56,919 nt of DNA from Acidobacteriota bacterium (GTDB lineage Bacteria; Acidobacteriota; Terriglobia; Terriglobales; Acidobacteriaceae), in contig QIAU01000147.1 of the NCBI GenBank assembly GCA_003225055.1, positions 1-56,919 of the forward strand. The letters run 5' to 3'. Positions within the stretch are counted from its first letter, which is position 1, and each line of letters starts with the position of its first letter. Below, in pieces: positions 9,908 to 53,447 of this stretch. The translations under genes were made by a program, and so were the position numbers. The notes below the pieces were generated by a model. It saw nothing but the letters and a program-made list of their open reading frames with translations. It did no database searches and had not been told where the DNA came from.

Positions 9908-10096
9908 GCGGAGGCAAGACTTTTCCGCCAGCCCCCTGACGGGAGCGAGAGAAGCGGGCTCGAGAGCGAGCTGCCCGGGGTACGGGAAAGGACGAGCCAT
10001 AAAAATGGACGCGAGAGACCTGTGTACGCCGTCCCGGCTTTACAGTATTCCATCTTCGGAGAATACGTCTCACTTTTCGGTACGGGGAGGTTGGCT

Positions 10097-24368: not shown

Positions 24369-25141
24369 TCGGGAATGGGGTGCGGCGTTCTTGCTTTCAA
24401 GTCCTGGGCGTGCGCGTGGATGCGGTCCAGATCCAGGACGTCTGCAGAATCCTTGAGCATTGGATTCAGCGGCGCCATCGCTGCCGTTACGTAGCCGTTA
24501 CCGGCATGCATGGCATGATGGAGGCGCGACACGATCCTTCATTCCGAGCCATCTTGAACTCTGCTGATCTGGTCGTGCCCGACGGCATGCCGCTGGTTTG
24601 GTTGGGCCGTCTTCGCGGCATGGACCTTCCCCGCCGGGTTTACGGCCCCGAACTCATGCTGAGTGTGTGCCAACAAACCAGTGCAAGCGGGTCGCGCCAC
24701 TTCCTGCTGGGCGGAGCACCGGGCGTGTCGGAGCGTCTTGCCTCAGCGCTCCAGAACAAGTTCCCCGGGCTTCGGATTGCAGGCACATGTTCTCCACCCT
24801 TCCGGCCCTTAACCAAGGAGGAAGACGAGGAGCTGGTGGCATCGATCAATCGCGCCTCACCCGATGTCGTGTGGGTGGGACTCGGCACGCCAAAGCAGGA
24901 GCGCTGGATGTACCAGCATCGTGATCATCTGAACGCAGCCGTGATTTTGGGAGTGGGGGCGGCCTTTGACATTCATTCGGGAACCAAGAAGCAGGCACCG
25001 AGCTGGATGCGGGAGGGCGGGTTGGAATGGCTCTTCCGGTTGTTTCAAGAGCCGCGTAGACTCTGGTGGCGCTACCTCGTCTATGGCCCCAAATTCGTTC
25101 TGCTTGCCGCACTGGAGTTGTTTGGACTCCGTAGATTCTGA
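24365..25141 (+). CDS. WecB/TagA/CpsF-family (GT26) glycosyltransferase
   Basis: The protein has 258 residues, the usual family length. Signatures are FQVLGVRVDAVQIQDV at the N-terminus, TGMHGMMEARHDP in place of the NxH...A region, LVVPDGMPLVW with the catalytic Asp, and VGLGTPKQERWM, followed by GVGAAFDIHSG. GT26 enzymes add N-acetylmannosaminuronic acid, ManNAc or glucose to lipid-linked acceptors. C-terminal basic and aromatic helices suggest membrane association. ATG 24365 overlaps the previous stop. Confidence 0.9.
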   Translation: MIGNGVRRSCFQVLGVRVDAVQIQDVCRILEHWIQRRHRCRYVAVTGMHGMMEARHDPSFRAILNSADLVVPDGMPLVWLGRLRGMDLPRRVYGPELMLSVCQQTSASGSRHFLLGGAPGVSERLASALQNKFPGLRIAGTCSPPFRPLTKEEDEELVASINRASPDVVWVGLGTPKQERWMYQHRDHLNAAVILGVGAAFDIHSGTKKQAPSWMREGGLEWLFRLFQEPRRLWWRYLVYGPKFVLLAALELFGLRRF

Positions 25142-25296
25142 TGGTTCGAGGACCGGCGAACGACAACAGCAGGCGCTGGGATTTGAGACCGATAGCCAGT
25201 ACCTACCACGTTTCCGGCCGGGAAGCGGAATCTTCCACCGCGAACGTGGTTCTCAATTGCGGGCGTAACCGTGGCGAGGGAGTGACAGGAACCAAG

Positions 25297-27213
25297 ATGT
25301 GCGGAATCGTGGGCTCCGTCGACGTCGGTGATCTCGAACCGGATCGAGACCAAATCCGGCGTGCTATGAATCACATGATCCATCGCGGACCCGACGGAGA
25401 AGGATTCACCGAATTTGTTATCTCGAACAACACAGGAGTTCGCGAGGCCGGGGAAAGCTTGCCAGCAACCGTCTTGCTGGGCCACCGCAGACTGGCAATT
25501 ATCGATCTCTCTGAAGCGGCTAGCCAGCCTATGGCGACGCCGGATGGACGATTCCACCTCATCTTTAACGGCGAGATCTACAACTATCGCGAACTTGGAG
25601 CAGAACTTCGGAACCTTGGATTCACGTTTCGCACCAGCTCAGATGCGGAGGTGTTGCTGCTAGGCTGGCAAAAATGGGGTGCCGCTCTGTTGCCGCGGCT
25701 CATTGGCATGTTCAGCTTTGCCATCTTGGATCGAAAAAATGCGACGATTGTGCTGGCCCGTGATCCCTTCGGCATTAAGCCCCTGTACTACGCGCAGGAT
25801 CAGAAGCGCCTGGTTTTTGCCTCCGAAATTACCCCCCTTCTCGATTTCCCGTCGATAACCCGTCGACCGAATCTGCACGCCGTCTATGAATTCCTCTCCG
25901 GTGGGTTCGGGGATCACTCCGGCAGGACCTTCTTTCATGATATCCACCAGGTCCCGCCGGCCCATTACTTATTGATCTCCTGTGGGTCTCCCGGGACGGC
26001 GGAGCCGGTGTGTTACTGGGAACTTCAGAGGAAACAATCTGATGGAACGTCGCCCGAGGAAGCGAGTTCCATCTTCCGTCATTTATTCAAACAAAGCATC
26101 AACCTGCATCTGCGAAGCGATGTTCCTGTGGGCGTGTCTCTTTCCGGAGGTATGGATTCGTCCTCGATAACCGCGATGGTTCGTGCCCTCCAAGGCCCCG
26201 AACGCGAATTACACACCGTCAGCTATGTCGCAGACGATCCCAACCTCTCGGAAGAGGGCTGGTGCCGAATTGTGGCAGCGGCCACCTCGGCGCGACAGCA
26301 TCTGGTTCACGTCCAAGCGAACGAACTTGTCCAGGACTTCCAGCGGCTGGTGCAAGTGCAAGAGCAGCCATTTGGATCACCCACCATCTACGCTCAATAT
26401 CGTATCTTCCGCTGCGCGCACCAGGCGGGCCTGAAAGTGATGCTGGGTGGACACGGGGCAGACCAATATCTGGGCTATATTGGTCATCTGCCGGTCCGGC
26501 TCGCCTCTCTGCTGCGCCAGGGACGATGGAGCGCAGCAGTCCGGTTCCTGCGCCACGCCCGGTCGCTCCCCCTGAGCGGAGCGCTCAGTTTACCGTCCGT
26601 GATACGACACATTTTGCCCGAAAGGCTGGTGGAAGCAGTAAAAGGCCTGCGTACGGCGATACCGTCAGGAGTGAACGCGGCTTGGTTTCGGCAACGCGGG
26701 GTTGGCGGACCCAATACTCATAGCAATCGCGGCCATTCGAACCTTCACGATCTCCTGAAGCAGAATCTTGGGGAGACACTTCCCTCTTTGCTTCGCTTTG
26801 AAGATCGCAATGCGATGGCATTCTCAGTTGAGAACCGGGTTCCGTTTCTTACCACGGAGCTGGTGGATTTCGTGTTTTCATTGCCTGAGGAAGAAGTGAT
26901 TTCAGGCGAGGGCTGTTGCAAAGCCATACTGCTGCGGGCCATGCAGGGGCTCGTACCTCCCGAGATTCTCAATCGTCGTGACAAGGTCGCTTTTGCCATG
27001 CCGCTCGCGAAACTGAATCGTCAAACTGGGGCTTGGCTCGAGACCCGATTGAGCGACGCTGCCGCCATTCCAGTATTTGATGTGGAGGAGGTTCAGAGAC
27101 AGTCGAAACTCACCCTGTACCAAGGAACATCCGATACCGAGTCACAACGGACGTTATGGCGCTGGCTGAGCTTCATCGCATGGGTGCGAGAGTTCCAAGT
27201 GTGTTTTGAGTGA
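25297..27213 (+). CDS. asnB: Asparagine-synthase-type glutamine amidotransferase
   Basis: This 638-residue protein starts MCGIVGS, giving the N-terminal nucleophile Cys2 once Met1 is removed. The glutaminase domain includes HRGPDGEGF, GHRRLAIIDLSE and FNGEIYNYREL. The ATP-dependent synthetase domain has the PP-loop SGGMDSSSI near residue 283. Later blocks include GGHGADQYLGY, MAFSVENRVPFLT and RRDKVAFAMP. ATG 25297 must be the start, as Cys2 has to be near the N-terminus. The 155-bp gap from the previous gene is the largest since 16495. In polysaccharide clusters such enzymes usually amidate uronic acids or amino-acid substituents rather than aspartate. The 3' end overlaps the convergent gene by 41 bp. 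Confidence 0.85.
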   Translation: MCGIVGSVDVGDLEPDRDQIRRAMNHMIHRGPDGEGFTEFVISNNTGVREAGESLPATVLLGHRRLAIIDLSEAASQPMATPDGRFHLIFNGEIYNYRELGAELRNLGFTFRTSSDAEVLLLGWQKWGAALLPRLIGMFSFAILDRKNATIVLARDPFGIKPLYYAQDQKRLVFASEITPLLDFPSITRRPNLHAVYEFLSGGFGDHSGRTFFHDIHQVPPAHYLLISCGSPGTAEPVCYWELQRKQSDGTSPEEASSIFRHLFKQSINLHLRSDVPVGVSLSGGMDSSSITAMVRALQGPERELHTVSYVADDPNLSEEGWCRIVAAATSARQHLVHVQANELVQDFQRLVQVQEQPFGSPTIYAQYRIFRCAHQAGLKVMLGGHGADQYLGYIGHLPVRLASLLRQGRWSAAVRFLRHARSLPLSGALSLPSVIRHILPERLVEAVKGLRTAIPSGVNAAWFRQRGVGGPNTHSNRGHSNLHDLLKQNLGETLPSLLRFEDRNAMAFSVENRVPFLTTELVDFVFSLPEEEVISGEGCCKAILLRAMQGLVPPEILNRRDKVAFAMPLAKLNRQTGAWLETRLSDAAAIPVFDVEEVQRQSKLTLYQGTSDTESQRTLWRWLSFIAWVREFQVCFE

Positions 27214-28177
27214 CGAATGCGGTTTCGGCTGAAGCGTTGACTTCCTCCACCTTATGGGGCTGGTTCGACACCTCGGGATGAGGCTTCTTCAACCAGGCTG
27301 CCACGACATCCCAATTGGCGAAAACCAGCAACTGCGGCACATTCAAGAACGTCAGGTTCATGCCCAGCAAAATTCCCAAATGAAAGAGCGCCACCAGTGG
27401 CACCAGCACGCGGCGCGCTATCCGTGAGAACAGCACCATGATCAACCCAAGTTCAAATACCAGTGTGCCGACGCCGAGGGCAAGGCAGGCCAGCTGTCTC
27501 GCCGCCGCCCATGCGCCCAGGGAATGAAATACTCCCATCTGGTCTTCTTCGATGCAATAGAGTATCCAGTTCCTGATGTTGGCTGCGGAGGCCCACTTCC
27601 AACCCACGACCACGATCTTCGCGTAGCCGGCAAAGAGGTAGATCTCAACCAGAAACACCTGGATCAGACGGACCGGCCACGTATAATCACTGGCCGGTGC
27701 CGAGGGCCGGCTTCGGCCGAGCGGCAACAGCGTCCAGGAGTCTCCACATGGTGAAAATGCAAGTGTGAGCAAGGCGATTACGGAAATCGTCAGGCCCCGC
27801 GCGTAGGGATGGGGAATCCAGATGATCGATTCAAACGGAGCGAGATGGTAGAGCAGGATCCCGGAAACGAAACAGGACAATCTGGGAAATACGCCTGCCC
27901 CCGCACAAACCAGGGCGATCCCGGCCAGCCAGACGAGAGTCCGTTCCAAGGATAAGTGTCCGGGGAAATCCAGATAGCGCCAGCGTGCGCTGGCGCCTAC
28001 TCGGCTCCAGAAGTCCAAGGGCAGGCCGGATACCTCAGCAAGCTGGCGCGAGGCGAGCACCCAAAGTGAGTATGCGGCAAAGATGATGCGCGCCGCGGCA
28101 AGGTTCCTCGGCGATGTAGGCGTAAACCAGAATGTGTCCCAATACTGGGCCCACCGGGATTGAGATAAGCGGTTCAT
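27173..28177 (-). CDS. HTTM-domain (vitamin K-dependent carboxylase-like) membrane protein
   Basis: This 334-residue integral membrane protein has about eight hydrophobic helices. The opening RWAQYWDTFWFTPTSPRNLAAARII and the FESIIWIPHPYARGL and AGYAKIVVVGWKWASAANIRN regions match the HTTM family, which is related to the membrane part of gamma-glutamyl carboxylase. The bacterial members are mostly of unknown function. It is the last gene of a three-gene operon, and ATG 28177 overlaps the previous stop (ATGA). The soluble C-terminal part of true carboxylases is missing; the small upstream protein may act as its partner. Confidence 0.7.
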   Translation of the reverse strand: MNRLSQSRWAQYWDTFWFTPTSPRNLAAARIIFAAYSLWVLASRQLAEVSGLPLDFWSRVGASARWRYLDFPGHLSLERTLVWLAGIALVCAGAGVFPRLSCFVSGILLYHLAPFESIIWIPHPYARGLTISVIALLTLAFSPCGDSWTLLPLGRSRPSAPASDYTWPVRLIQVFLVEIYLFAGYAKIVVVGWKWASAANIRNWILYCIEEDQMGVFHSLGAWAAARQLACLALGVGTLVFELGLIMVLFSRIARRVLVPLVALFHLGILLGMNLTFLNVPQLLVFANWDVVAAWLKKPHPEVSNQPHKVEEVNASAETAFVTQNTLGTLAPMR

Positions 28178-28818
28178 CGCAGGGGATACTCGTAGGCAAG
28201 TACACGTGTCAGTTTTGCCGGATCAAGACGGCGAGCTTCGAGGTCCCAACTTTCTTGGTAAATTCTCAGCCGAACGAAGCAATTACGCGGCACTCGTCCC
28301 GCCCGGGACCAGATGGCGGGATGGAGTATGTGAGTCGGAGCCGTCAGAGGCCCCAGCCAGCGATTTGGGTAAGCCAATCCGGACGGGGCAAGGGCTTGCT
28401 CGCGTGCGCGATTGGCACGGTCCAAAAAGAATTTCCCGACCCGGTCCTCTGACGCACGGTCGAGGTGGAAGAAATGGAGATTCAACCAGGAGGTGAGCTC
28501 TTCGAGGGAAAGCGGCTGCCAGGCTCGATAGTCGATGTCGTATTCGTTTCCGTTGGCGTCGACACCGACAATTCTGGGCGTGGGCAGATCGAACGTCGCG
28601 GCAGGCATGGGCATGGCCAAGACCGGCCATGACGAAAACGGCCACAGGTTATGCTGTGTCAGACCCGCGGCGAAACTAACCGTCAGGGCGAAGGCGAGGA
28701 ACGCGTTCGTCAGCCGGCGCTTGGCCGGTTCGGCCAGGAACCGCCCCCCGGTGGCGGCCAGCAGGCCCAACCCAACAAACCCCACAAAGGCGATTGTGCT
28801 GACGATGTTAGTTTTCAC
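28174..28818 (-). CDS. Small membrane-anchored protein, probable HTTM partner
   Basis: This 214-residue protein has two N-terminal hydrophobic segments (IVSTIAFVGFVGLGLLAAT and LTNAFLAFALTVSFAAGL). A soluble domain of about 150 residues follows, with DANGNEYDIDYRAWQPLS and FFHLDRASEDRVGKFFLDRAN. I do not recognise a named family. Similar proteins commonly sit beside HTTM genes, as far as I recall. I chose GTG 28818: it follows AGGAG at the right distance and overlaps the upstream stop (GTGA). It is translationally coupled on both sides, which argues for a stoichiometric partnership with its neighbours. Confidence 0.65.
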   Translation of the reverse strand: MKTNIVSTIAFVGFVGLGLLAATGGRFLAEPAKRRLTNAFLAFALTVSFAAGLTQHNLWPFSSWPVLAMPMPAATFDLPTPRIVGVDANGNEYDIDYRAWQPLSLEELTSWLNLHFFHLDRASEDRVGKFFLDRANRAREQALAPSGLAYPNRWLGPLTAPTHILHPAIWSRAGRVPRNCFVRLRIYQESWDLEARRLDPAKLTRVLAYEYPLR

Positions 28819-29735
28819 ACGCGTTCTCCTAATAACCGGTGTCGCGCGTCTCCCAGTTGTATGGACCCGCCCTGGCAGTACAAATTCCACCCAAAAGATC
28901 GAAGGCGTACCTGCCCCGCCTCACCCTGGCAATCGCCCGGAGTGTAACCCAGCACCGAGTGGTAGCGAATCTCTTTTTGACGATGGTCGCGCAGCGGTTC
29001 CCGCCGCCGCGAGCACAGGCCGGACAAAAAGTGCCAGACGCGCTCGACGTCCCACTCGCGAAAGTTTACCAGTCCCACTCCATGCGCCACTCGCGGAGCA
29101 TATGTGGAAAAACGTTCGTCTTGCGTAATTGGCTGCATGTCGCCATTCTCAAGACTACCCAGGACCTCGAGCAATAACTTCCCTCCCAGTTCGGCCTTCC
29201 GAGTGTAAAGACGCTCAATCGGAAACCCGCGAGGCAAATCGAAAGCCTCCTGTGCCAGGATGTCGCCGGCATCGGCCTGCGGGCTCATGCGGTGGACGGT
29301 GACACCGGTACGGTGGTCGTTGTGGTAGTAGACCCACAACAACGGGTTCGGACCCCGATGACGCGGGAGTAATGAGGAATGGACGTTCAGAGCCGAACGG
29401 CGCGCGATCCCCAGGATCTCCTTCCCCAGAATCCAGGGGAATGCGGAAACGCAAACCACATCGGGTGCAAGCTTTTGCAAGCGCTCTACCAAGTCCGGAT
29501 CACGTCCTGAGACTGCATCAAGCAGCGGCACATCGTGCATTCTCGCCCACTTGGCCATGACTGCCTGCCCCGTGAGTCCTGATCTTGACAGCACCGACCT
29601 GATGGCCCGGCCGAATCCGGACCTGGCTTTCCCGGGTCTTACGACCGCAATCACCCGATGGCATTTGGAGGCGGCATCCAGAGGGACCATGCTACCCTCG
29701 CCGCCACTTCCGAAAAATGCCACCGTCAGCATCAT
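28815..29735 (-). CDS. Formyltransferase-family protein (methionyl-tRNA formyltransferase-like)
   Basis: This 306-residue protein has the formyl-transferase fold: start MMLTVAFFGSGGEGS, the catalytic N-x-H in NVHSSLLPRHRGPNP (about residues 114-128), and the catalytic Asp in SPQADAGDIL about 35 residues later. The C-terminal region resembles the OB-like domain of such enzymes but is divergent. Outside translation, the family formylates amino sugars (VioF/FdtF-type) or peptides and lipids using N10-formyl-THF. Its location between a polysaccharide operon and a peptide-type operon, first in a three-gene operon, makes housekeeping Fmt unlikely. ATG 29735 is chosen, with 29732 also possible. Confidence 0.75.
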   Translation of the reverse strand: MMLTVAFFGSGGEGSMVPLDAASKCHRVIAVVRPGKARSGFGRAIRSVLSRSGLTGQAVMAKWARMHDVPLLDAVSGRDPDLVERLQKLAPDVVCVSAFPWILGKEILGIARRSALNVHSSLLPRHRGPNPLLWVYYHNDHRTGVTVHRMSPQADAGDILAQEAFDLPRGFPIERLYTRKAELGGKLLLEVLGSLENGDMQPITQDERFSTYAPRVAHGVGLVNFREWDVERVWHFLSGLCSRRREPLRDHRQKEIRYHSVLGYTPGDCQGEAGQVRLRSFGWNLYCQGGSIQLGDARHRLLGERV

Positions 29736-29993
29736 GTACCTTTTCGATGGGGCTCGCTCTCCCACCCAGTTGAGGTTTGTCCGGGAGCAACGCCTAGGGG
29801 TTTGCCCTGATACGCGCGGCTAAGAGTGTCCTTGCACATGAGGTTTCAACTCATTTTCAGCGAACTTTCGGAAGCGAACTCTTCGCTAGGTCGCGATATT
29901 TATTAACCGACATACATCATATGGAAGTGGTTTGCCAATACGATAGAGCCCTGGCAACAACTTAGGACCCGACCGGCAATACGCACCCTGTCC

Positions 29994-30086: not shown

Positions 30087-30362
30087 GTGAGCACTCTTTA
30101 TTGCCGCTGTGAGTCGATTGAGACGGCTCCGCTCCAGGACGAAACGATTCTTTTCGATCCTGAGCGAAAGAAGTTTTGCGTTCTTAACCGGACCGCTTCG
30201 TTCATCTGGAATCAGCTTGCCATTCCGACCACTGTCGAAAGTCTGGCCGCCAAAGTCTGCGAGAGTTTTTCAGGAGTCTGTATGGAAAGCGCATTAAGTG
30301 ACGCAGACCATACCATTCAGGAAATGCTGACCTTGAACTTTGTTGGCAGCCAACCCGATTAA
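30087..30362 (+). CDS. PqqD-family peptide-binding protein (RiPP recognition element-like)
   Basis: This 91-residue protein has the PqqD-like pattern ILFDPERKKFCVLNRTASFIWNQLA: a beta-hairpin, then a helix ending in W-x-x-L. A C-terminal helical region (ESLAAKVCESFSGV) follows. In PqqD and related RRE domains this fold binds the leader of a precursor peptide and presents it to modifying enzymes. It stands first in the operon, 11 bases before a small peptide gene and ahead of an HprK-like kinase. Haft-type HprK/PqqD systems in exopolysaccharide loci use this combination. GTG 30087 follows GTGGGGA. Confidence 0.8.
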   Translation: MSTLYCRCESIETAPLQDETILFDPERKKFCVLNRTASFIWNQLAIPTTVESLAAKVCESFSGVCMESALSDADHTIQEMLTLNFVGSQPD

Positions 30363-30373
30363 GGAGATTGACA

Positions 30374-30553
30374 TTGAGCGAGCTTAATAGATCGAACGAA
30401 CCGGACGAGAAGATTGCGTCTTCCTTCGGAACATCTGGTACGAACGCGTCCATTCTGCCGGCTTATGAGCCTCCACATCTGACTGTGATGAACGAGGACG
30501 AGGTTCTGAGCGCCTTCCAAGTTCCAGTTGTCGCTGGCTCCTGGTGGGGATAG
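30374..30553 (+). CDS. Small peptide ending GSWWG, candidate modified-peptide precursor
   Basis: This 59-residue peptide starts at TTG 30374, seven bases after AAGGAG (30361-30366); an in-frame TTG at 30368 would sit too close. The sequence is acidic and polar, then has YEPPHLTVMNEDEVLSAFQ and ends VPVVAGSWWG. The Y-x-P-P-x-L element resembles leader motifs bound by PqqD-type domains in lasso-peptide pathways, and the short hydrophobic, aromatic tail looks like a core. The stop overlaps the next start by one base, so it is coupled to the kinase. There is no database evidence; the precursor role is inference from composition, position and the preceding PqqD-like gene. Confidence 0.6.
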   Translation: MSELNRSNEPDEKIASSFGTSGTNASILPAYEPPHLTVMNEDEVLSAFQVPVVAGSWWG

Positions 30554-31677
30554 TGGGCGGCTGGCAGCCTGATCCAGCCCAGGTGAGGCTACAGCCGACG
30601 ACCAGGGGGTTTTGGGCGCCGCGCTGGTGGCAGAATCCGGCTTGCTTACTCGAGGGCTTCTCCAAGCTGGAACGGGTTCCGCTGGTCTCGGATTGGTTCC
30701 AGCTCGTCGATGCCTATCTGGGCATCGAGTCTCAGGACCTCGCTTTTCGGAGCAGGTTCAGACGGCTCTACGGTGAGTTTTTGTCGAGTCCCTCGCGGGT
30801 TCCTTTGGGCGTTCAGAAACTCCACTGCCAGGTGCAAGTTAGCCGCGGAGCGCCTGCCTGCTTAGTGACGTTATCCGCCCCTGAAGAGGTCGGCATGGTC
30901 GACTTTATCCTGGACTTGTATCGCGATCGCGGCTATGTCGAAACCTACGACACCTCTGACGGTTGGCGGTCTCTAGGTCTACCGGGTCGAGACGAGCCCC
31001 TGCTGACCGCCAAAGGTTCTCACGTGTTTGTTGGTCGATGGCAATCTTGGCAGCCGTTGATTGCCACTTGTGCAATCAACTGGGTGATGCGAATGCAGCC
31101 GGATGTGCTGTTCTTCCACGCGGCCTCCGTCGGTATCGGTGGCGCGGGTGTTCTGATTGCAGGCGACAAGGGTACAGGCAAATCCACTTTGTCGATGGCC
31201 CTGGGGGCACAAGGCCACGAATTCTTCGGGGATGAGATTGCGGCAGTGAGGTGGCCGACGCTTGAGCTTGCTCCCTTCCGCCGGACTGTGTCAGTGCGCC
31301 CCGGCCCCCAATCGCGCTGGGTCGAAAAGGTCCTCAGGGACAATGCCACCTACACGGAGCCCTTTCCAGACGGCACCACTCGCAGGCGCGCAGAGGCCGG
31401 CAAACTGTTCCCGCGAGCCGTGGCAAACTCGCTGCCGCTGCGCTGGCTGTTTTTTTTACGTAGCTTCGAGTATCGACCGCGGGCCGAGGCCTTTCGTCCG
31501 CGGACTTCGGACCTCCGATTGCTGGCTCCCATGCCGTGCGCGTTTTGGAAAACGTCTCCCGCGCGGCCGATGATGAAGGCCGCCAAATTGCTTTCGAGTG
31601 TGAACTGTTACTTTCTCCATCCAGGCTTGCCCGAAGAAACGGCCGGACTGGTGGAGGGAATAGTGAGGGCAGGATGA
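30553..31677 (+). CDS. HprK-like serine kinase-related protein
   Basis: This protein of about 374 residues has roughly 200 N-terminal residues of unknown fold. The C-terminal half resembles HPr kinase: a Walker A loop in AGDKGTGKSTLSMALG near residue 205, the EFFGDEIAAV acidic motif, and RRTVSVRPGP beyond it. HprK homologues occur in lasso-peptide (tailoring kinase) and HprK-rel-A clusters, where they can phosphorylate peptide serines. The tail of the small peptide upstream contains one serine. The gene starts at GTG 30553, overlapping the peptide stop codon, and ends overlapping the next ATG (ATGA). Confidence 0.75.
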   Translation: MGGWQPDPAQVRLQPTTRGFWAPRWWQNPACLLEGFSKLERVPLVSDWFQLVDAYLGIESQDLAFRSRFRRLYGEFLSSPSRVPLGVQKLHCQVQVSRGAPACLVTLSAPEEVGMVDFILDLYRDRGYVETYDTSDGWRSLGLPGRDEPLLTAKGSHVFVGRWQSWQPLIATCAINWVMRMQPDVLFFHAASVGIGGAGVLIAGDKGTGKSTLSMALGAQGHEFFGDEIAAVRWPTLELAPFRRTVSVRPGPQSRWVEKVLRDNATYTEPFPDGTTRRRAEAGKLFPRAVANSLPLRWLFFLRSFEYRPRAEAFRPRTSDLRLLAPMPCAFWKTSPARPMMKAAKLLSSVNCYFLHPGLPEETAGLVEGIVRAG

Positions 31678-32225
31678 CTCTTTCGGTCGAGAACAGAGCA
31701 GAAAAGGTGGCGACTTTTCGCTTCATTCATGTGTTCTTAATGGAAACGCTGGCGCGGTGGGTGCCCATGACTCCGGAAATGGAGGTGAAGGTGATCCTCG
31801 GGCGCCACATATGGGATCTGGCACAACAGGCTGACGCTCTTGGCAAGCGCACCTACGAGTTACGTGCTCCATTGCAATTCAGCCTTCGTCCCCTCGACCG
31901 CTACGCTCGTTTCCTCGAGGAGTTCGCCAGGACCACGGCCACTTCCGAGAAAATTCACGGTTTCTATGAAGTGATGCTTCCCGCCCTAGCGGTGCGATAT
32001 CGGGCATACCTGGACCAGACAGACCGGCTGCTAGACGAACCTACGGTGCGCATCGTGGAGCGCATACTCGGCGATTTCACTCGTATGGAGAGCGAAAGCC
32101 AGCGGCTGCTGGACGAGCTTCCCGAGTTACGTCCGGTGGACCAGACATGGCTGGCAGGTCTGCGCAAACTTGAAGCTGCCGAGACCGACATAGTCGCCTC
32201 CCGGCCTGCCACGGCAGTGGCGTGA
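31674..32225 (+). CDS. Helical protein resembling a degenerate ferritin-like domain
   Basis: This 183-residue, almost entirely helical protein contains FIHVFLMETLARWVPMTPEMEVKVILGRHIWDLAQQADALGKR. That stretch resembles the first half of DUF455-type ferritin-like proteins (E-x-K-x7-H-x6-QHAD). The second helical pair (DEPTVRIVERILGDFTRMESES) lacks the D/E-x-x-H iron ligands seen in the two downstream proteins. It may be a structural or regulatory partner of those enzymes. Both ends overlap neighbours by four bases, so the level of expression is probably tied to them. No named family is assigned. Confidence 0.55.
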   Translation: MTLSVENRAEKVATFRFIHVFLMETLARWVPMTPEMEVKVILGRHIWDLAQQADALGKRTYELRAPLQFSLRPLDRYARFLEEFARTTATSEKIHGFYEVMLPALAVRYRAYLDQTDRLLDEPTVRIVERILGDFTRMESESQRLLDELPELRPVDQTWLAGLRKLEAAETDIVASRPATAVA

Positions 32226-33046
32226 GTGGAGGTGCCATGGTCGCGCTAAAGCCAGAAGAGACAAAACAGGTCAAAGGGATGACGCTTCGGCGCGATCCCT
32301 TGCGGGAAGATTGTTTCAGCGTCGTCAACAGCGATGCCGAGCTAAAGGAGTGGCCGGACATGTCGGACATCTCCCGGCGCCAGCGTCTTCACCGCCACAT
32401 GAACAACGAAACCGGAGCGATCGAGATTGCCGCCCAATGCCTTGTGGACTTCCCGGAGGCGCCATGGGAGTTGCGCATGCACCTGGCACGCCAGTGCTGG
32501 GATGAAAGTCGCCATGTGGCCTCGCTCTATCGTCGCTTGCGCGAGATAGGGGGCCGCAAAGGCGAATTTCCGATCTCAAATTTTGAATGGACTGTGACCT
32601 GTGCGTTGGACTCGCTGGCCGCTCGACTGGCGCTGCAAAACCGCACGTTTGAGGCAGGGGAACTGGACCTGCTGGGCCAGCTTCCGCCGAAATGGCGAGA
32701 AGTGGGCGACGATGCCACCGCGGAGGTGCTGGAGTCTATTCTGGCTGACGAGATCACACACGTGCGCTTTGCCAACCAATGGCTGAGACGCATGATACAG
32801 GAGGACCGCCGCGTCCTGCTTAAGATTGCGATGGCGGCTCGCTTTCTCTCCGCAGTTAGCGCCGCAGTCGCGCCGAAAGAAGGCGAAATGAGCCCCAGCG
32901 GCTTGCCCTTTGTCAAAGGTGAGGAGAAACTCGCTCCCGTCAACATCGAAGATCGCAAGCACGCGGAGTTTTCCGACGCGGAAATCGACCAATTTTTGCG
33001 CCAATCGGGCTTTGAATCGATTATGACCACCGGAGCGGAAGGATGA
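32222..33046 (+). CDS. DUF455-like ferritin-superfamily (probable di-iron) protein, first copy
   Basis: This 274-residue helical protein carries two ferritin-type ligand pairs. The first is E in TGAIEIAAQCLVDFP with DESRHV. The second is E in NRTFEAGELD with DEITHV. These are the E...E-x-x-H set of DUF455/MiaE-like di-iron proteins. The family is poorly characterised; relatives hydroxylate or oxidise substrates with O2. An N-terminal extension of about 50 residues precedes the domain. GTG 32222 overlaps the upstream stop; ATG 32237 after GGAGG is an alternative. It is coupled to the second copy, so a heterodimer is possible. Confidence 0.75.
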   Translation: MSGGAMVALKPEETKQVKGMTLRRDPLREDCFSVVNSDAELKEWPDMSDISRRQRLHRHMNNETGAIEIAAQCLVDFPEAPWELRMHLARQCWDESRHVASLYRRLREIGGRKGEFPISNFEWTVTCALDSLAARLALQNRTFEAGELDLLGQLPPKWREVGDDATAEVLESILADEITHVRFANQWLRRMIQEDRRVLLKIAMAARFLSAVSAAVAPKEGEMSPSGLPFVKGEEKLAPVNIEDRKHAEFSDAEIDQFLRQSGFESIMTTGAEG

Positions 33047-33810
33047 CCAGCGCGGCCCAGATTTCACCAACCCTCGATCCCAAGCTTTTTGGTGATGCCC
33101 CCGCGCGCGACGCGCGGTTTCGCGAGAAGAGTCGCTGGGTGGACCTTATGAATTTCCCCGACGACCATCCGCTGAAAGTGGTTGAGTTCTTTCATCGTCA
33201 AATGAACGAAGAAATGAATGGGATGGAGAACGCAGCCCAATCGCTCGCCGATTTTCCCGACGCCGACTGGAATGTGCGGCTGTCCATTGCGCGCCAGTGT
33301 GCCGATGAAGCCAGGCACGTAGAAATGTTTCGGCGCATCTTCGAGAGCCGGGGCGGGGAGATCGGCGCTTATCCCGTGCTGAATTTCCAGTATCGCATCA
33401 TTGCGAATCTCCCCGACCTCCTGAGCCGCCTGGTGGTGCAAAACCGCAGTTTCGAGGCGGGAGGTATTGATGCCGTCACCTTTGCCATTGACGAAGCCCG
33501 GAAAAGGGGCGATCAGGAGCTGGTGGAGTTGTTTGAGATGCAGCAGGCGGACGAGATCACGCATGTCCGTTTTGCAAACGAATACATCCGGGACACCATC
33601 CGTGCCGACCCCCGCGCCGCCCTGCGGGTCGCCCGTGCCCTTACCCTTGCTTCAACCGCGTTCACCGAGGTGATGGGCAGAGAGGGCATCGAGAAAGTCG
33701 AATATCTCACGGACGAAAGGGGCCGAATGGAAGCCGGCTTTGGGCTCGAGGAAGTAAAAGCCGCCACCACGCAAGCAATCAAACGACGTGCCTCGTATGA
33801 AGGCCAATGA
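33043..33810 (+). CDS. DUF455-like ferritin-superfamily (probable di-iron) protein, second copy
   Basis: This 255-residue paralogue of the preceding protein has the same ligand layout: NGMENAAQSLADFP, CADEARHVEMF, NRSFEAGGID and ADEITHVRFANEYI. Divergence outside these blocks is considerable, so the duplication is not recent. ATG 33043 overlaps the upstream stop (ATGA). The 3' end overlaps the following membrane-protein gene. Retention of complete ligand sets in both copies suggests both bind metal. Confidence 0.75.
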   Translation: MTSAAQISPTLDPKLFGDAPARDARFREKSRWVDLMNFPDDHPLKVVEFFHRQMNEEMNGMENAAQSLADFPDADWNVRLSIARQCADEARHVEMFRRIFESRGGEIGAYPVLNFQYRIIANLPDLLSRLVVQNRSFEAGGIDAVTFAIDEARKRGDQELVELFEMQQADEITHVRFANEYIRDTIRADPRAALRVARALTLASTAFTEVMGREGIEKVEYLTDERGRMEAGFGLEEVKAATTQAIKRRASYEGQ

Positions 33811-34921
33811 TCTCAGGGAACTGGCATATCCTTTATGGGAAGCTGTGTCTCCCCACCGAGAAGACTCGGTTCTCGCGGATGCTCGACCTCTCGCCCCCGC
33901 TCGGCGCGGCTGGGTCCAATCCCCGCTGTTTGATCTGAGTCTGTTCACCGTATCGCCGCTGGCGGGCCTATTCGTCATACTACCGGCGCTTTGGTCGCCA
34001 AAAGGCCTGCACGTCTTTATTGCTGCCACATATCTGATTGCAATTCCACACTATGTCTCGAGCTTCAGCTTTTACCTGGGTGATGAAAACCTAACCTACT
34101 ATCGCACGCGACGCTTGGCCTTCTTTGTTGGTCCACTCTTGATCCTCATCAGCGTGATGGCGTTGCGAATAATGAAGATCGATGCCGCCGTGCAGTCCGC
34201 GCTTTACGGGTGGAATGTTTTCCACGTGTCGATGCAAAGCGCCGGCATCCTTTCCCTCTATCGACGCCTCAACGGAGGTTTGCCCTCCGAGAGCCGGTCT
34301 GCGCGTGCCTCTCTGCTGGGCGTGAATGGAGGCCTGGCATTCCTTCATATCGACCGTTTTCCCCCGATTTATCAGAACCTGCTGAGGATTCACTTCCCGG
34401 TGTGGACAATTCGCGCCGCCTTTCTGACTGTCGCAGCCGTTGGCCTGGCCTTCTACCTGGACAGTCTTCGGCGTCGAAGGAAGCGGATTCGAGCTCCCGA
34501 GCTCACCTTTCTTATATCCAGCTTGCTGCTTTTCCACCCCTACCTCTGGGTCCGCGATTCGGATCTTGCCACCTTTGGCATGCTCATGGGGCACTTTCTG
34601 CAGTATCTGGGCATAGTCTGGTTGCTCAATCGCAGGAAATACTCCATGGTGGAAGGCTCGGGACACCAAAGGCTGCTCTCCTCGATCAGTACGAAGACTC
34701 CGCTTCTGATGCTGGCATTGGTTTCTGTCGGTTTGGTATTTTATCTTGCACAAAAGTCGAGTGCGTGGCTGGGCGTTCCCATCTCTTATGTCATCCTTTG
34801 GAACTCGCTGGCACTGGTTCACTTTTACCTCGACGGGCTCATCTGGGCGTTCAAGAATCCGTTCGTTCGCAAGTCCATTGGACCGTACCTGACTCCAGAA
34901 TCACACATGGCAGCCGAATGA
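33797..34921 (+). CDS. Polytopic membrane protein with conserved-looking histidines (Brp/Blh-like fold possible)
   Basis: This 374-residue protein has about eight to nine hydrophobic helices. Histidines sit in or near helices in patterns such as IPHYVSSFSFYL, WNVFHVSMQ, GHFLQYLGIVW and ALVHFYLDGLIWAFKNPFVRK. The last, H-x(2-4)-D-x-x-I-W-x-x-x-x-P, recalls membrane oxygenase-like proteins of the Brp/Blh group, but similarity is weak and I give no function. It could bind iron and work with the adjacent ferritin-like proteins. The gene overlaps the preceding one; ATG 33797 is preferred, GTG 33788 is possible. Confidence 0.5.
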   Translation: MKANDLRELAYPLWEAVSPHREDSVLADARPLAPARRGWVQSPLFDLSLFTVSPLAGLFVILPALWSPKGLHVFIAATYLIAIPHYVSSFSFYLGDENLTYYRTRRLAFFVGPLLILISVMALRIMKIDAAVQSALYGWNVFHVSMQSAGILSLYRRLNGGLPSESRSARASLLGVNGGLAFLHIDRFPPIYQNLLRIHFPVWTIRAAFLTVAAVGLAFYLDSLRRRRKRIRAPELTFLISSLLLFHPYLWVRDSDLATFGMLMGHFLQYLGIVWLLNRRKYSMVEGSGHQRLLSSISTKTPLLMLALVSVGLVFYLAQKSSAWLGVPISYVILWNSLALVHFYLDGLIWAFKNPFVRKSIGPYLTPESHMAAE

Positions 34922-35179
34922 ACGAAAATATTGCCGATAGTCGGAGCGGCGCAGGGTTCGACAGGAAGCGGTTACGGATTCTCCAGCCGGCTGAGAACGA
35001 GTTCGCGTGGAATCAACTTTGCTTACCTTTGGCACTCGGTGAGAGTCTCCGACCTTGGGGAGTGTCGAAGGCCGGTTAGGCCCAGAGAGCCTTCAGGCTT
35101 GGCCGCGGCCGGTTTTCAAATTGTGACCGGCAGACTCGAGTTCGCCACCGAGTACAATGCCCGCACCCAGAGGCTCAAG

Positions 35180-36553
35180 ATGGAAAATCAGGATCACGCA
35201 GCCGCCGCTTGGCCACGTGTTCAACTTTTGGCGTTTCGATTCGCGTTTGTCTACCTAATCCTGTACTATCTTCCGTTTCCCTTCGGCAGCTTACCCCACA
35301 CTGTCCGAATCGCACAAAAATACGAATCACTCTGGCTCACGCTTGTGCCTTGGGTCGGCAAGCATGTCCTTCGCTTGAGTCATGCGATTATGACCTCGAC
35401 AAACTGCAGCGGTGATACCACCTACGATTATGTGCGGGTTTTGTGTTTTCTCGCCCTCGCCTTCGCTGGCTCTCTTCTTTGGTCTTTCCTTGATCGATCG
35501 CACTCAAACTACCAGCGGATTCACCAGTGGCTCCGGTCCTACGTCCGGCTTTCAGTGGGAGCCGCGATGCTCATGTACGCAGCCGCCAAGATTTTCCTGA
35601 TGCATTTTCCCCAGCCAAACCTCTACAAGCTGCTCGAGCCCCTCGGCGACTACTCACGGATGAGCTTGCTCTGGACCTTCATGGGGGCTTCTCCTGGCTA
35701 CCGCCTATTTGCCGGCTGTTTGCAGATGTTCAGTGGCATCTTGCTTTTCGTCCCGCGGTTGACAACTCTGGGAGCTCTCGTAGGCCTGGCAGTCTTTTTG
35801 AACATTTTCGCTCTCAACTTGGGTTATGACTTGCCGGTTAAGCTCTATTCCTTGCATATCATTCTCGCCTGCTTCTTTCTTGTTCTGCCGGACGCGCGGC
35901 GGTTAGTTAACTTCTTCTTGCTCAACCGAAGCGTTGCGCCCTCTCCTGAGACCGCCCTGTTTAATTACAGACGCGCAAACGCCGCCGCCTTGGTCGCGCA
36001 ATTGGCGCTGGGCGGATTTCTGTGCTGCTTATACCTTTATCAAACGCACGATTACGAAAAACGGACTTTCGGCATGGGTTCTCGGCCGCCGTTCTACGGC
36101 ATCTGGGTCGTCGATGAATTCACACTCGGCGGGAAGGTGCTGCCCCCGCTATCGACCGACCAGACCCGTTGGCAGAGGGTGGTCTTCCAGTTTCCCCAAA
36201 AAATTGGCATTCAGTCCATGAACGGCTCATGGATGAGATACTGGCTACGCGGGGACAAGGCGAAGAAAAGCTTGGCTATGGGAAAGCCTGACGATCCTAA
36301 GAGAGAGTTCGAATTTACCTTTTCGAACCCTGATTCCTGGTCGCTGACTTTGGACGGAAGCAACGGGGAAAACCCGATTCGGGTCAAACTCCACCGGGTG
36401 GACGAAACACAATTTGCGCTCCTCGACAGGAGTTTTCACTGGATCGACGAAGATGCTGTTTTGGTGATGGACGAGGAGAGCGTTTGCGATCGTGTCAGTC
36501 GGATGGATGGCACGCTCTTGGCCCCGGTGAAAACTCGGGCGTTGCCTCAGTAA
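35180..36553 (+). CDS. DoxX-like membrane protein with soluble C-terminal domain
   Basis: This 457-residue protein has several hydrophobic helices in its first 300 residues. They include AAMLMYAAAKIFLMHFP, then LLWTFMGASPGYRLFAGCLQMFSGILLF, a DoxX-like arrangement. A soluble C-terminal domain of about 150 residues (GIWVVDEFTLGGKVLPPL, then FTFSNPDSWSLTLDG) is rich in beta strands. Proteins with this exact layout are usually labelled DoxX-like and have no established role. The 258 bp before ATG 35180 hold no clear gene. The downstream peptidase gene follows within 25 bp. Confidence 0.65.
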   Translation: MENQDHAAAAWPRVQLLAFRFAFVYLILYYLPFPFGSLPHTVRIAQKYESLWLTLVPWVGKHVLRLSHAIMTSTNCSGDTTYDYVRVLCFLALAFAGSLLWSFLDRSHSNYQRIHQWLRSYVRLSVGAAMLMYAAAKIFLMHFPQPNLYKLLEPLGDYSRMSLLWTFMGASPGYRLFAGCLQMFSGILLFVPRLTTLGALVGLAVFLNIFALNLGYDLPVKLYSLHIILACFFLVLPDARRLVNFFLLNRSVAPSPETALFNYRRANAAALVAQLALGGFLCCLYLYQTHDYEKRTFGMGSRPPFYGIWVVDEFTLGGKVLPPLSTDQTRWQRVVFQFPQKIGIQSMNGSWMRYWLRGDKAKKSLAMGKPDDPKREFEFTFSNPDSWSLTLDGSNGENPIRVKLHRVDETQFALLDRSFHWIDEDAVLVMDEESVCDRVSRMDGTLLAPVKTRALPQ

Positions 36554-36576
36554 GAGCGAAGGCTCTCAAGGTCGGT

Positions 36577-37206
36577 ATGGGAAGCCCCATGCAATCTGCC
36601 GGTAAGATGAAACGGAATCAATCGAGTGTCGTGGGCCACTCCGGGTTCGACAGCGAGTGCTTCTTGGCGCTCTCCAGGCTTCTGAGGAAAGGATCTCGGG
36701 AGTTTGAGTTCTTTCTTTCGGGCACGAGTATGGGACCCACGCTGCCCGCCGGGTCGTGGATCCGCGTCAGGCTGGCTGCGGATGGCGAATTCATGGTCGG
36801 TCAAGTGTTAACCTACGTCGCGAAGGACCGCGTGCTGGCCCATCGTCTGGTGCGATCCGTGAAATCGGGGAACCAGGAGTATCTGATTACGCGCGGCGAT
36901 GCCACGGCCTGCTGCGACCTGCCGGTGGTTGCGTCTTCCGTCATCGGCATCGTAACCGAATATTGCGCGGCCGGCTCCTGGCAACCGGTGGGCCCGCCCC
37001 GAGCGCGCTGGTTCGGCTTCGCATGGACGGCCTGGGCAATCTCTGCGGCAGTTGGCGGGTTGGTGCGCCGGAATCCTGGAATTGCAGCTTGGACGGCGAG
37101 ACGGATCATCAGGATTCATCGGCTTCTGATGAGACTGGCCGGCTTTGCGACGCGTCACGTTGCCCGATGGTCATGGGCCCGAACCCGCGTCCAACGCCCG
37201 AGTTGA
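36577..37206 (+). CDS. S24/S26-type peptidase, Ser/His signal-peptidase-like
   Basis: This protein of about 209 residues has the serine motif SGTSMGPTLPAG near residue 45. A second motif, VLAHRLVRS, has His where bacterial signal peptidase I and LexA have Lys. ITRGDATACCD corresponds to the GDN/GDA box. A Ser-His arrangement of this kind is typical of SipW, archaeal and ER signal peptidases. A hydrophobic segment near the C-terminus (FAWTAWAISAAVGGLV) could anchor it, and the end is very basic. In a peptide cluster it could mature or remove the leader. ATG 36577 is preferred; ATG 36589 and 36607 are possible. Confidence 0.6.
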   Translation: MGSPMQSAGKMKRNQSSVVGHSGFDSECFLALSRLLRKGSREFEFFLSGTSMGPTLPAGSWIRVRLAADGEFMVGQVLTYVAKDRVLAHRLVRSVKSGNQEYLITRGDATACCDLPVVASSVIGIVTEYCAAGSWQPVGPPRARWFGFAWTAWAISAAVGGLVRRNPGIAAWTARRIIRIHRLLMRLAGFATRHVARWSWARTRVQRPS

Positions 37207-37627
37207 GGCGGAAACTCGCGCCCCGGCGCACTTTGAAGAGTTTTCCTGTTCTCCTGGACACGGTCATTCCATGCGGCTGAAGTCCGCGATAACCCCTTGT
37301 GGGCACCTGTCGGTGGGCAACCAGGAAACCGGGAGCGTCACCTAGATTGCGGAAACGACGCGTTGATTGGATGCCTGCGGCCGAAGTTCGTCGGCCCCTC
37401 CTCGGGAGAACAGATCATCCGAACTAAGCTATTACTTCGAAAGTATGAGAGGGCCCGGAAGGCTGGTTCGTGATGCGGTTCGGGGGAAGAATCCGAAGAC
37501 CAGGCCAGGAGCGCACAAAATACCCCCAAGGAGCGGCAGACGAAATGGATCATCATTTTTAGGCATTTCTGTAAAGAGGGTCTGACCGAGGCGTGGGAGC
37601 ATTTCTGAGCCTTTCCGGGCGCGGAGA
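37207..37627 (+). other. Intergenic region, no supported gene
   Basis: Between the peptidase and the nucleotidyltransferase gene I see no coherent reading frame or clear promoter. It may represent the end of one transcription unit. Confidence 0.3.
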
Positions 37628-38986
37628 TTGCCGGCGCATCTCGGGCGACTGGAGGAGCAAAGGCGGCACATTGTGCATCGGATCGCGACATATTACAAAG
37701 ACTTATCAACAGAGCACGAGTTCTTACTCGAGTTACTCGGCAAGCGCAATCAGGTGTGCCACCATGAATTAGAAAACAAAGCGACCGAGATTAACTGGCC
37801 CCATCTGTTCTTCATCACTTCCCCTGATCTTTACGGATATCTCGGGTACAGGCTCATGAAACTTGGTTTCCAGAGTCGATGCCCGGCGTCGTCCTTCGAG
37901 GAGACAGTGAACGTCCGTCGGGCTACGGCGGCACAATGGCTTCGCTTTCGCTTTGAACTGCGCCGCCTTGCCGCTGAGTTTGCACGGCAGCACGTCGATT
38001 TTCTGTTATTGAAAGGGGCCGTATTGGCATCTTTGGCCTATCCCGACGCTTCTATGCGCTCGGTGTCCGATATCGACATCCTGGTGCGTTCGGACAACTT
38101 GGCCAAGGCGCTGGAGTGCGTTTATGCTGCGGGTTTCAAGTGCCCGGGGCGTTACGCGCATCCGGAGAATCTCATGGAATCCGCGCTGCCGGGGGAGGAG
38201 ATTTCGCTCCCGGTGGAAAAACCGGGCACGCGCGCCCTGATTGAGGTTCACACCCAACTGGAATCGGCAGAACCGTGGTTCCCGGTAACCATCGGCCAGG
38301 TTTGGGAGACCTCGAAGCCGGCGAACCTCGACGGACTCAAGGTGCGTATTCCCGACCAGCACGAGTTTCTCTTTCACTTGATTTTGCACCTAGCCCGGGG
38401 ACACCTGTTCTCTCTCGGCCTGCGGCCGCTACTGGACGTTCATTTGTGGGTGGAATGTCAAGGTGAACTCCTGAACTGGAAATGGATTGCCGCGGAGTGT
38501 GGCCGCAGAGGCTATGGCGACTGGGCACACTTGACGCTGAAGATTGTGTCCGACACGTTCGGAACTCGAATCCCGTCCTATTTCTTTGAGCACGTTCCGC
38601 CGCCGCCCGCACTCGATCGCCTGCAGCGGCTTGCCTACGAACAGATCTGGTCCGATCGCCGGTTGGACTCCCTCGTTCCGCCCCGTCTCGCGATGACGCT
38701 GTCTGAAGGCTCTGTGAAGAGTGCAGTCTTCGCCTTGCTCAGGCGGGTGAAACCGACCCGTCAGGAAAGGGGTTCAACTGTTCCACCGTCAACGGGAATC
38801 GAGAGTGCCGGCTTGACCGGCGGTTTTCGGCGAATATTAAACGACTTCCGAGTAAAAACACCGCAGTACCTTCGGGCGTGGCGCAAGGGCACGCTCCGCT
38901 GGTCGACCCTGCAGGAAGCTGCGCGCTTGGCGAAAGGGCGCCTCGAAATCAAACAGCTCATTGTCGATCCTCACCAGAGGAAGTGA
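37628..38986 (+). CDS. NTP_transf_5-type nucleotidyltransferase-fold protein
   Basis: This protein of up to 452 residues has the core DFLLLKGAVLASLAYP followed by RSVSDIDILVR: the nucleotidyltransferase-like motif with D-x-D. A helical region follows (HEFLFHLILHLARGHLFSLG, then LLDVHLW). The family appears repeatedly next to PqqD- and HprK-like genes in lasso-peptide and HprK-rel-type clusters, where the substrate is unknown. That supports placing it in the same system, although a 420-bp gap separates it from the peptidase. The start is uncertain: TTG 37628 or GTG 37670, and the N-terminal 60 residues look less conserved. Confidence 0.7.
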   Translation: MPAHLGRLEEQRRHIVHRIATYYKDLSTEHEFLLELLGKRNQVCHHELENKATEINWPHLFFITSPDLYGYLGYRLMKLGFQSRCPASSFEETVNVRRATAAQWLRFRFELRRLAAEFARQHVDFLLLKGAVLASLAYPDASMRSVSDIDILVRSDNLAKALECVYAAGFKCPGRYAHPENLMESALPGEEISLPVEKPGTRALIEVHTQLESAEPWFPVTIGQVWETSKPANLDGLKVRIPDQHEFLFHLILHLARGHLFSLGLRPLLDVHLWVECQGELLNWKWIAAECGRRGYGDWAHLTLKIVSDTFGTRIPSYFFEHVPPPPALDRLQRLAYEQIWSDRRLDSLVPPRLAMTLSEGSVKSAVFALLRRVKPTRQERGSTVPPSTGIESAGLTGGFRRILNDFRVKTPQYLRAWRKGTLRWSTLQEAARLAKGRLEIKQLIVDPHQRK

Positions 38987-49920: not shown

Positions 49921-49934
49921 TGCCATTCTCCTCG

Positions 49935-51521: not shown

Positions 51522-51531
51522 GGCTGCTCTC

Positions 51532-53220: not shown

Positions 53221-53447
53221 GACTCGCGGCCTCCTTCCGGACCTTGCTGCGCGTGCAGCGCTTGGTTCTTTAGGTAAGAATCTCGAGAGAGAGCTGGCGC
53301 TGGCCTGCCTGTCGGTCAACAAGTTCGCGCACTCGCCAGCCAGAAGTTAGTCGGCACAAAATTTTCTTACTCATCGATAGCAGTTGATCCCACAGGGCCT
53401 GCAAGGAAAACCATTGGCTCAAAACATCTCGGGGGAGAAATTGGGCC

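Follow-up and report, generated by a model that had tools for sequence, protein, structure and literature searches.

What does a soil bacterium of the phylum Acidobacteriota make with an operon in which a PqqD-like protein and a tiny peptide are encoded together with two enzymes of DUF455 (PF04305), a Pfam family named as one of unknown function? The operon lies entirely on the + strand, from position 30087, of contig QIAU01000147.1, the whole 56,919-nucleotide stretch of which is referred to here as the window. We consider it, with a probability of roughly two in three, to be a biosynthetic operon of the type that yields ribosomally synthesized and post-translationally modified peptides (RiPPs), in which O2-activating DUF455 enzymes oxidise a Trp-Trp pair of the peptide. 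Its RiPP nature is strongly inferred, and the tiny peptide is very probably made and altered. The computed basis consists of gene content, conservation, a coding peptide, its invariant Trp-Trp, di-iron ligand sets, predicted fold, linked inheritance and a natural fusion of PqqD and peptide.

Between 30087 and 33810, the genes for the PqqD-like protein, a peptide of about 60 residues, an HprK-like kinase, a protein designated ferrA, DUF455a and DUF455b form a tight string, which is followed by two membrane-protein genes, a gene for an S26-type Ser/His peptidase and an NTP_transf_5 gene. All genes named in an earlier note on this DNA were found at the places and on the strand given there, and the four-base overlaps that it described lie at 31674 (HprK/ferrA), 32222 (ferrA/DUF455a) and 33043 (DUF455a/DUF455b). 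Its interpretation of the genes as one system is supported, with a refinement of membership. The conserved core set consists of PqqD, the peptide, ferrA, DUF455a, DUF455b and the S26 peptidase, nearly always with HprK; both membrane proteins and the NTP_transf_5 protein are accessory, partly conserved companions.

The precursor gene (30368..30553, + strand, 61 codons) begins with a TTG directly 3′ of AAGGAGA, an alternative in-frame TTG at 30374 being possible, and encodes a leader and a short core with the C-terminal end ..AGSWWG. The leader contains YEPPHL (30464..30481), an instance of a lasso-like YxxPx[LIV] motif, and the Trp-Trp codons at 30542..30547 mark the presumed modification site. 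The peptide is coding and under purifying selection: pN/pS (non-synonymous over synonymous differences) was 0.08-0.32 over 15 pairs, for which the last 41 codons of the window peptide were compared with those of five closely similar copies, found at three further loci, and these with one another. When family profiles were built with one group of peptides left out at a time (14 groups), the left-out peptides were all recovered at E ≤ 4.2e-11, and in all 14 runs the identical 21 peptide open reading frames (ORFs), and nothing else, passed 1e-3 among 15,940 small ORFs. Against curated family models, neither the window peptide nor 10 other peptides matched significantly; two of these 10 reached E ~0.1 to unrelated models.

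In an alignment of 20 copies from 18 loci, P36, Q51, W59 and W60 were invariant (20/20), and Y33, E43 and F50 nearly so. The leader motif was found in 19 of the 20 peptides, with FxxPxV in the remaining one. Core residues flanking Trp-Trp were variable, and the tail that follows the pair ranged from 1 to 9 residues, with a single residue in 9/20 peptides. No Asp or Glu followed the conserved FQ in 18/20, and the leader/core boundary was not fixed. A longer CWW core, with four extra residues, is common to the peptides of acidobacterial genome G084, GR16-43 and Ramlibacter, while loci L019 (7322, 13944) and L020 (7328, 15542) carry two precursor copies each, the last 12 residues of which are identical. 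A short ribosomal precursor with a conserved leader, one of the hallmarks of a RiPP, is present at these loci.

A candidate recognition element is encoded beside the precursor. The PqqD-like protein (30087..30362, + strand), which presumably serves in this role, matched PF05402 at 43.7 bits (cut-off 23.4), and the two are naturally fused in Ramlibacter monticola (L029), where the precursor makes up the C-terminal portion of its recogniser. Because Trp-Trp is invariant within a variable core and the peptide can be fused to PqqD, the peptide is taken to be the substrate. A YxxPxL motif is described for lasso leaders, where it is needed for recognition by the PqqD-type protein B1 (PMC10368454), and the YxxPx[LIV] leader matches it. 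As judged from these motifs, the system probably shares the leader logic of the lasso pathway. By inspection, a pqqBCDE-like operon at L016 (G000:C109; locus positions 5524-8619) contains the other PqqD of the window's genome, G000.

The two DUF455 proteins, DUF455a (32222..33046, + strand) and DUF455b (33043..33810, + strand), are candidate ferritin-like di-iron oxygenases. They matched PF04305 at 104.4 and 71.7 bits, respectively, against a gathering cut-off of 34.3. Six residues, E57, E89, H92, E138, E171 and H174, were invariant in 38/38 aligned DUF455 rows; in DUF455b they form the pattern E57, E89xxH92, E138, E171xxH174 (four Glu and two His) and fall in four helices (H45-70, H76-102, H126-154 and H158-188) of an AlphaFold2 (AF2) model with a predicted local distance difference test score (pLDDT) of 95. 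By alignment, both proteins carry a complete di-iron carboxylate ligand set. Known ferritin-like di-iron oxygenases carry the same E/ExxH/E/ExxH pattern. When the DUF455 profile was compared with solved structures, it matched bacterioferritins at 1.8e-5, aldehyde decarbonylases at 5.1e-5 and a homologue of VlmB at 0.0026. Structural alignment of the DUF455b model with VIA placed aldehyde-deformylating oxygenases and the azoxy synthase VlmB at the top ranks, with Z ~16: an aldehyde-deformylating oxygenase at Z 16.3 (root-mean-square deviation (rmsd) 3.5, 189 residues aligned), VlmB at Z 16.1 (rmsd 3.4, 203 aligned) and, below these, MiaE at Z 14.8 (rmsd 3.5, 168 aligned). A Z of about 16 supports the fold class and not a substrate; fold does not show function.

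The fold that VIA indicates is thus shared with these oxygenases, whereas identity to them is only about 12-18%, and the present system differs in having a second DUF455 copy and ferrA in all informative loci (defined below). The substrates of aldehyde-deformylating oxygenase are aldehydes, that of VlmB is a small azoxy precursor and that of MiaE is tRNA; none of the three is known to act on a RiPP precursor.

FerrA (31674..32225, + strand) is a ferritin-fold partner protein, for which the mechanical ORF start is 31536 and the conserved start 31674. It has no Pfam match; an AF2 model with pLDDT 94.9 shows a ferritin-like fold, and no di-iron ligand set is seen in the ferrA alignment. The description of three ferritin-like proteins, two of them with full di-iron sets, therefore holds. 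The highest VIA score, Z 16.2, was to chains of toluene 4-monooxygenase, a score at which numerous ferritin-like rows were tied, and a sequence search of solved structures returned nothing significant. No specific homologue of ferrA is claimed, because Dps-like, ferritin and oxygenase rows tie at Z 14-16 in VIA and the top Foldseek matches, TenA/CADD, have E > 0.02.

Of 60 other genomes, most of which belong to the family and order of the window's genome, none had DUF455b at 1e-10; among 396 genomes of the phylum, matches at 1e-12 were present in six. Both paralogues occur in four of these six, one being the genome of the window. When genome contigs were scanned and the best 80 of 256 relatives kept, 79 distinct loci resulted. 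Comparisons were made over 23 distinct loci, namely the window, three other loci from genomes of the phylum, and the first 20 scan loci, all of which belong to the clade of the system and one of which repeats another place; L035 (identical to L015) and L104-L106 (identical to L033, L038 and L037) were dropped as duplicates. These loci span Acidobacteriota, Gemmatimonadota and Pseudomonadota, with one Omnitrophota fragment. A locus was counted as informative where its contig covers the relevant stretch, and four fragments (L026, L028, L031 and L032) were omitted from a count whenever that stretch lies off the contig. DUF455b was present in 23/23 loci by selection and the S26 peptidase in 23/23. 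DUF455a was present in 22/22 informative loci, a count that rests on best-profile assignment, the DUF455a profile also matching DUF455b of L028. FerrA was found in 21/21, HprK in 20/21 (missing in L023), and PqqD and the peptide in 18/19 each (missing in L025).

Searches made with the peptide profile gave the same picture from the other side. Among the 396 genomes of the phylum there were four strong matches, in exactly the genomes with the DUF455 pair. A weak fifth (E 6e-4) came from genome G119, where a peptide at L103 (G119:C245, 625-1093, − strand) has a lasso-like leader and lies next to another PqqD-like ORF but lacks Trp-Trp; the phylum may thus contain a broader family of peptides linked to PqqD. 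Among 60 relatives of genome G099, the peptide and the DUF455 pair were found in the identical five genomes, and one further genome had a single distant DUF455. The informative part of this co-occurrence is absence elsewhere, which is seen best in the 60 relatives of G099. The earlier note had staked its proposal on conserved co-occurrence of the small peptide with these genes, and this was observed: the peptide accompanies the DUF455 pair in 18/19 loci, 4/396 genomes and 5/60 genomes. In 59 distant DUF455 loci, the PqqD, HprK, S26 and peptide profiles matched 0/59 and the ferrA profile 35/59; no other neighbour group occurred in more than 7 of them, an antisense-frame cluster aside, and the neighbours gave no chemical hint. 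A search of plasmids returned one distant Geobacillus DUF455 only.

Linked inheritance was examined in a DUF455 tree of 107 rows. One clade (100/98) contained all 23 DUF455b rows of the system, and all 22 system DUF455a rows formed another (99/96) together with a single outsider, L039; the two clades join at 95/87. Long branches among some of the other rows make the deep root uncertain. The possibility raised earlier that DUF455 genes travel independently thus applies to other DUF455 clades, which occur without the peptide, and not to the system paralogues, which are linked but for L039. That locus, from a metagenome-assembled genome titled Bordetella parapertussis, carries a DUF455a-clade gene and a shortened ferrA (9618-10711); no PqqD, HprK or peptide profile matched within its 20.7 kb, and it is possibly a remnant or a different use. 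The DUF455 copies of the acidobacterial genome G084 group with betaproteobacterial ones, which suggests horizontal transfer. The three CWW-core peptides belong to one enzyme clade, so that precursor and enzymes seem to change together.

DUF455 and ferrA also occur in another RiPP-like setting. In Bradyrhizobium sp. DOA9 and B. forestalis (L084 and L086; about 8780-10714), they are encoded as one fused protein, the ferrA part of which matched at E 1.4e-21 and 8.5e-22. Within 8 kb are Lant_dehydr_N and Lant_dehydr_C proteins and a C39 exporter, as assigned by Pfam in DOA9 and by 94-98% identical genes in B. forestalis; a small GG-leader peptide ending VMCPW accompanies the fusion. These loci resemble the present system in placing DUF455 and ferrA in a RiPP-like cluster (with a split LanB), and differ in having another precursor (GG leader, VMCPW end), a single DUF455 and no PqqD, HprK or S26 profile match. 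The fusion points to two or more recruitments of DUF455-ferrA into RiPP clusters. L088 was not counted as a third fusion; its N-terminal part matches ferrA weakly (E 0.03; 1.3e-6 with a wider profile).

The remaining core genes encode a kinase homologue and a peptidase. The HprK-like ORF (30544..31677, + strand; likely start GTG 30553, which gives a one-base overlap with the peptide stop) scored below curated cut-offs, at 27 of 33.3 bits for PF07475 and 47.6 of 200 bits for TIGR04352. G212, K213, T215, H225 and D230 were identical in 21/21 aligned rows, one of them a duplicate. With its P-loop and GH..D residues kept, the protein may be called kinase-like only. The S26/SipW-type Ser/His peptidase (36484..37206, + strand; true start probably 3′ of the ORF start) scored 40.7 bits with TIGR02228, below the cut-off of 51.85; S82-M83 was conserved in 24/24 and H120-R121 in 23/24 aligned rows, again including one duplicate. 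It is a candidate leader peptidase.

The pathway that we propose would proceed as follows. PqqD would bind the YxxPx[LIV] leader and present the short core to DUF455a, DUF455b and ferrA. DUF455a and DUF455b, each with a putative carboxylate-bridged di-iron site, would activate O2, and the pair would oxidise the invariant Trp-Trp by hydroxylation, N-oxidation, desaturation or crosslinking; ferrA may support them structurally. A Ser or Thr of the peptide is the probable target of the HprK-like kinase, and the core is probably released by the S26 peptidase. As in the earlier note, O2-dependent chemistry on an aromatic core is an inference. A di-iron precedent for chemistry on tryptophan is AetD, which rearranges this amino acid (PMC11611611); it differs in its heme-oxygenase-like fold and in acting on the free amino acid.

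Several results weigh against this proposal. Similarity to DUF455b was the basis on which the loci were gathered, which makes the counts given above conditional on DUF455b, and many of the genomes searched with the peptide profile had also contributed to it; the 396-genome peptide search scored up to 17 candidates per genome, whereas the search of the 60 relatives scored all. L025 has long flanks and lacks PqqD and the peptide, neither of which was found in three frames upstream, and L023 lacks HprK; neither the PqqD-peptide pair nor the kinase is strictly obligatory nearby. (One of the L025 upstream frames resembles a 2-oxoglutarate oxygenase by eye.) The distant DUF455 loci carry no such peptide, which argues that DUF455 enzymes can also act on something else. 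The peptide core has no Ser or Thr at a fixed position and hence no defined kinase target, the peptide sequences give no leader/core boundary, and no dedicated exporter is conserved among the loci. On the structural side, Foldseek matched neither the DUF455b nor the ferrA model to a PDB entry at E ≤ 0.001, and in VIA a shared arrangement of helices is enough to bring unrelated bundles to Z 13-14.

No DUF455 or COG2833 RiPP was found in the open-licence PubMed Central (PMC) literature searched by titles and abstract starts, which does not prove absence in print; to that extent, the statement that DUF455 enzymes are not part of any described RiPP pathway is borne out. The papers there that join RiPPs with PqqD and HPr kinase deal with lasso peptides, and none turned up that joins RiPPs of Acidobacteria, or a lantibiotic dehydratase of Bradyrhizobium, with ferritin-like proteins. 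The operon probably represents a RiPP class not found described in that literature, with known logic and an enzyme family for which no RiPP role was found there. Related systems include the pathways of the multinuclear non-heme iron-dependent enzymes (MNIO, DUF692) for biphenomycin-like peptides and nitrilobacillins, in which a non-heme multi-iron enzyme acts on a short precursor and, for nitrilobacillins, an asparagine-synthetase-like partner is present. MNIO enzymes are a separate family, whereas DUF455 is ferritin-like and four-helical by Pfam and by the AF2 model.

A more far-reaching reading, which we consider improbable, is a new RiPP class in which the paired DUF455 proteins would turn the adjacent Trp-Trp residues into a crosslinked or quinone-like group, to be released by the S26 peptidase as a small redox cofactor or pigment derived from the peptide. 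If true, such a Trp-Trp cofactor or pigment would be a counterpart of pyrroloquinoline quinone (PQQ) or mycofactocin, spread across several phyla.

The genomic surroundings contain further genes. By inspection, a long exopolysaccharide-type cluster lies 5′ of the operon (1-25100), with an export protein, a chain-length regulator, a sugar transferase, a flippase, a polymerase and glycosyltransferases. On the − strand at 27173-29765 are genes for an HTTM-domain protein and a small membrane-anchored-looking protein, a pair that recurs in 10/23 loci (also L015, L019-L021, L030, L031, L033, L036 and L037), in several copies in some; a formyltransferase lies near the system in most HTTM-bearing loci. 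An FA_hydroxylase-like membrane protein is found near the system in L014, L015, L024, L027, L028, L036 and L037 (PF04116 checked in L036), twice in L014 and L028 by inspection. Downstream of the window operon, a 2794-codon secreted-looking protein and then two more ORFs, which resemble multicopper oxidases by eye, occupy 41542-53322 on the − strand. The accessory genes of the operon itself, all on the + strand, are those for a membrane protein in a 377-codon ORF (33788..34921; 12/23 loci, these and the following counts including fragments), a second membrane protein in a 540-codon ORF of uncertain start (34931..36553; 5/23 loci) and the NTP_transf_5 nucleotidyltransferase (37628..38986; PF14907, 127.2 bits; family matches in 14/23 loci). 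A possible further accessory, an asparagine-synthetase homologue (AsnB), is encoded upstream at 25141..27213 (+ strand; TIGR01536 397.7 bits, cut-off 267.1), with AsnB-family matches in 13/23 loci. NTP_transf_5 and AsnB are broad families, and these matches may not be orthologous.

HprK, PqqD, NTP_transf_5 and AsnB proteins are frequent companions of exopolysaccharide and envelope clusters. The operon could accordingly belong to exopolysaccharide or envelope assembly, with a sugar or lipid intermediate as the substrate that DUF455 oxidises, and the peptide as only a scaffold or regulator. The position of the operon after a polysaccharide-type cluster (by ORF inspection; WecG family 181 bits, cut-off 69) and the recurrence of HTTM, formyltransferase and FA_hydroxylase genes nearby are in keeping with this, but the core set is kept in loci whose other neighbours differ, and both the invariant Trp-Trp in a variable core and the peptide-PqqD fusion point to a peptide substrate. 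We regard a role in envelope assembly as rather improbable.

The peptide might also be a sacrificial scaffold, from which the oxidised Trp-Trp is excised as a small molecule or redox cofactor, in the way that PQQ and mycofactocin are cut from peptides. A PqqD-type recogniser, two invariant aromatics near the C-terminus with 1-residue tails in 9/20 peptides, and a peptidase in 23/23 loci would suit such an excision; tails of up to 9 residues after Trp-Trp speak against it, and we judge it unlikely.

A divergent lasso pathway would assign PqqD as B1, the peptide as lasso precursor, AsnB as cyclase, HprK and NTP_transf_5 as tailoring enzymes and DUF455 as additional tailoring. Phosphorylation of lasso precursors by homologues of HPr kinase is described in PMC8498205 and PMC10368454, with the PqqD-type B1 assisting in one case; the clusters for phosphorylated lasso peptides (paeninodin, bsf, pseudomycoidin) likewise have a PqqD-type recogniser, an HPr-kinase homologue, a nucleotidyltransferase nearby and a YxxPxL leader. 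The lasso-like leader beside PqqD in G119, which lacks Trp-Trp, and the AsnB-family matches, which in L025 and L028 lie directly 3′ of the S26 gene, could be read in the same way. Lasso clusters, however, have a B2 peptidase and a lasso-type cyclase, whereas here no cyclase of that type was recognised by model score, and the distinguishing parts are a pair of DUF455 proteins and a core with Trp-Trp. A B2-type PF13471 protein was absent from the whole genomes G000, G099 and G124, and the one in G084 lies on another contig. The window AsnB scored 293.1 bits with the lasso cyclase model (cut-off 525) while passing the AsnB model, and AsnB homologues fell below the cyclase cut-off in 9/9 cases tested, the window and 8 neighbours from other loci. 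Neither cut-off was reached by the divergent copies of L025 (159 bits with the lasso model, 161 with the AsnB model) and L028 (119 and 143 bits, respectively). No AsnB match was found in 10/23 loci, the fragments L026, L031 and L032 among these. The earlier note was right that no lasso cyclase is present, in that no homologue tested passes the lasso model, but it had not reckoned with the asparagine-synthetase homologue upstream; its statement that a leader peptidase is missing holds for the lasso B2 type and not otherwise, given the candidate S26 peptidase. Because the B2 peptidase is missing from three of the four whole genomes and from the cluster of the fourth, and AsnB lies below the cyclase cut-off, membership in the lasso pathway was rejected; together with the 18/20 peptides in which no candidate ring acceptor follows FQ, this kept the system from being filed as lasso, and a divergent form of that pathway is very unlikely. 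An asparagine-synthetase-like enzyme is described as acting on a RiPP C-terminus (PMC13060819), a precedent from which the AsnB neighbours here could gain a role.

That DUF455 and ferrA merely serve iron storage or the response to oxidative stress and lie by chance next to a peptide gene with which they have nothing to do, as their ferritin-like fold and the bacterioferritins among the best profile and Foldseek matches might suggest, can be dismissed as highly improbable, since linked inheritance in several phyla (on which, from the DUF455 tree, the passenger role was rejected), overlapping frames, clade structure and co-occurrence all contradict it and the top VIA rows are oxygenases.

We therefore favour a RiPP-type operon in which DUF455 enzymes oxidise Trp-Trp. 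The operon gives DUF455 a concrete, testable substrate, and the named strain Ramlibacter monticola KACC 19175, in which the set occurs as the version with fused precursor and recogniser, makes the proposal directly testable. The ferritin-like di-iron fold would then join the enzymes that modify ribosomal peptides.

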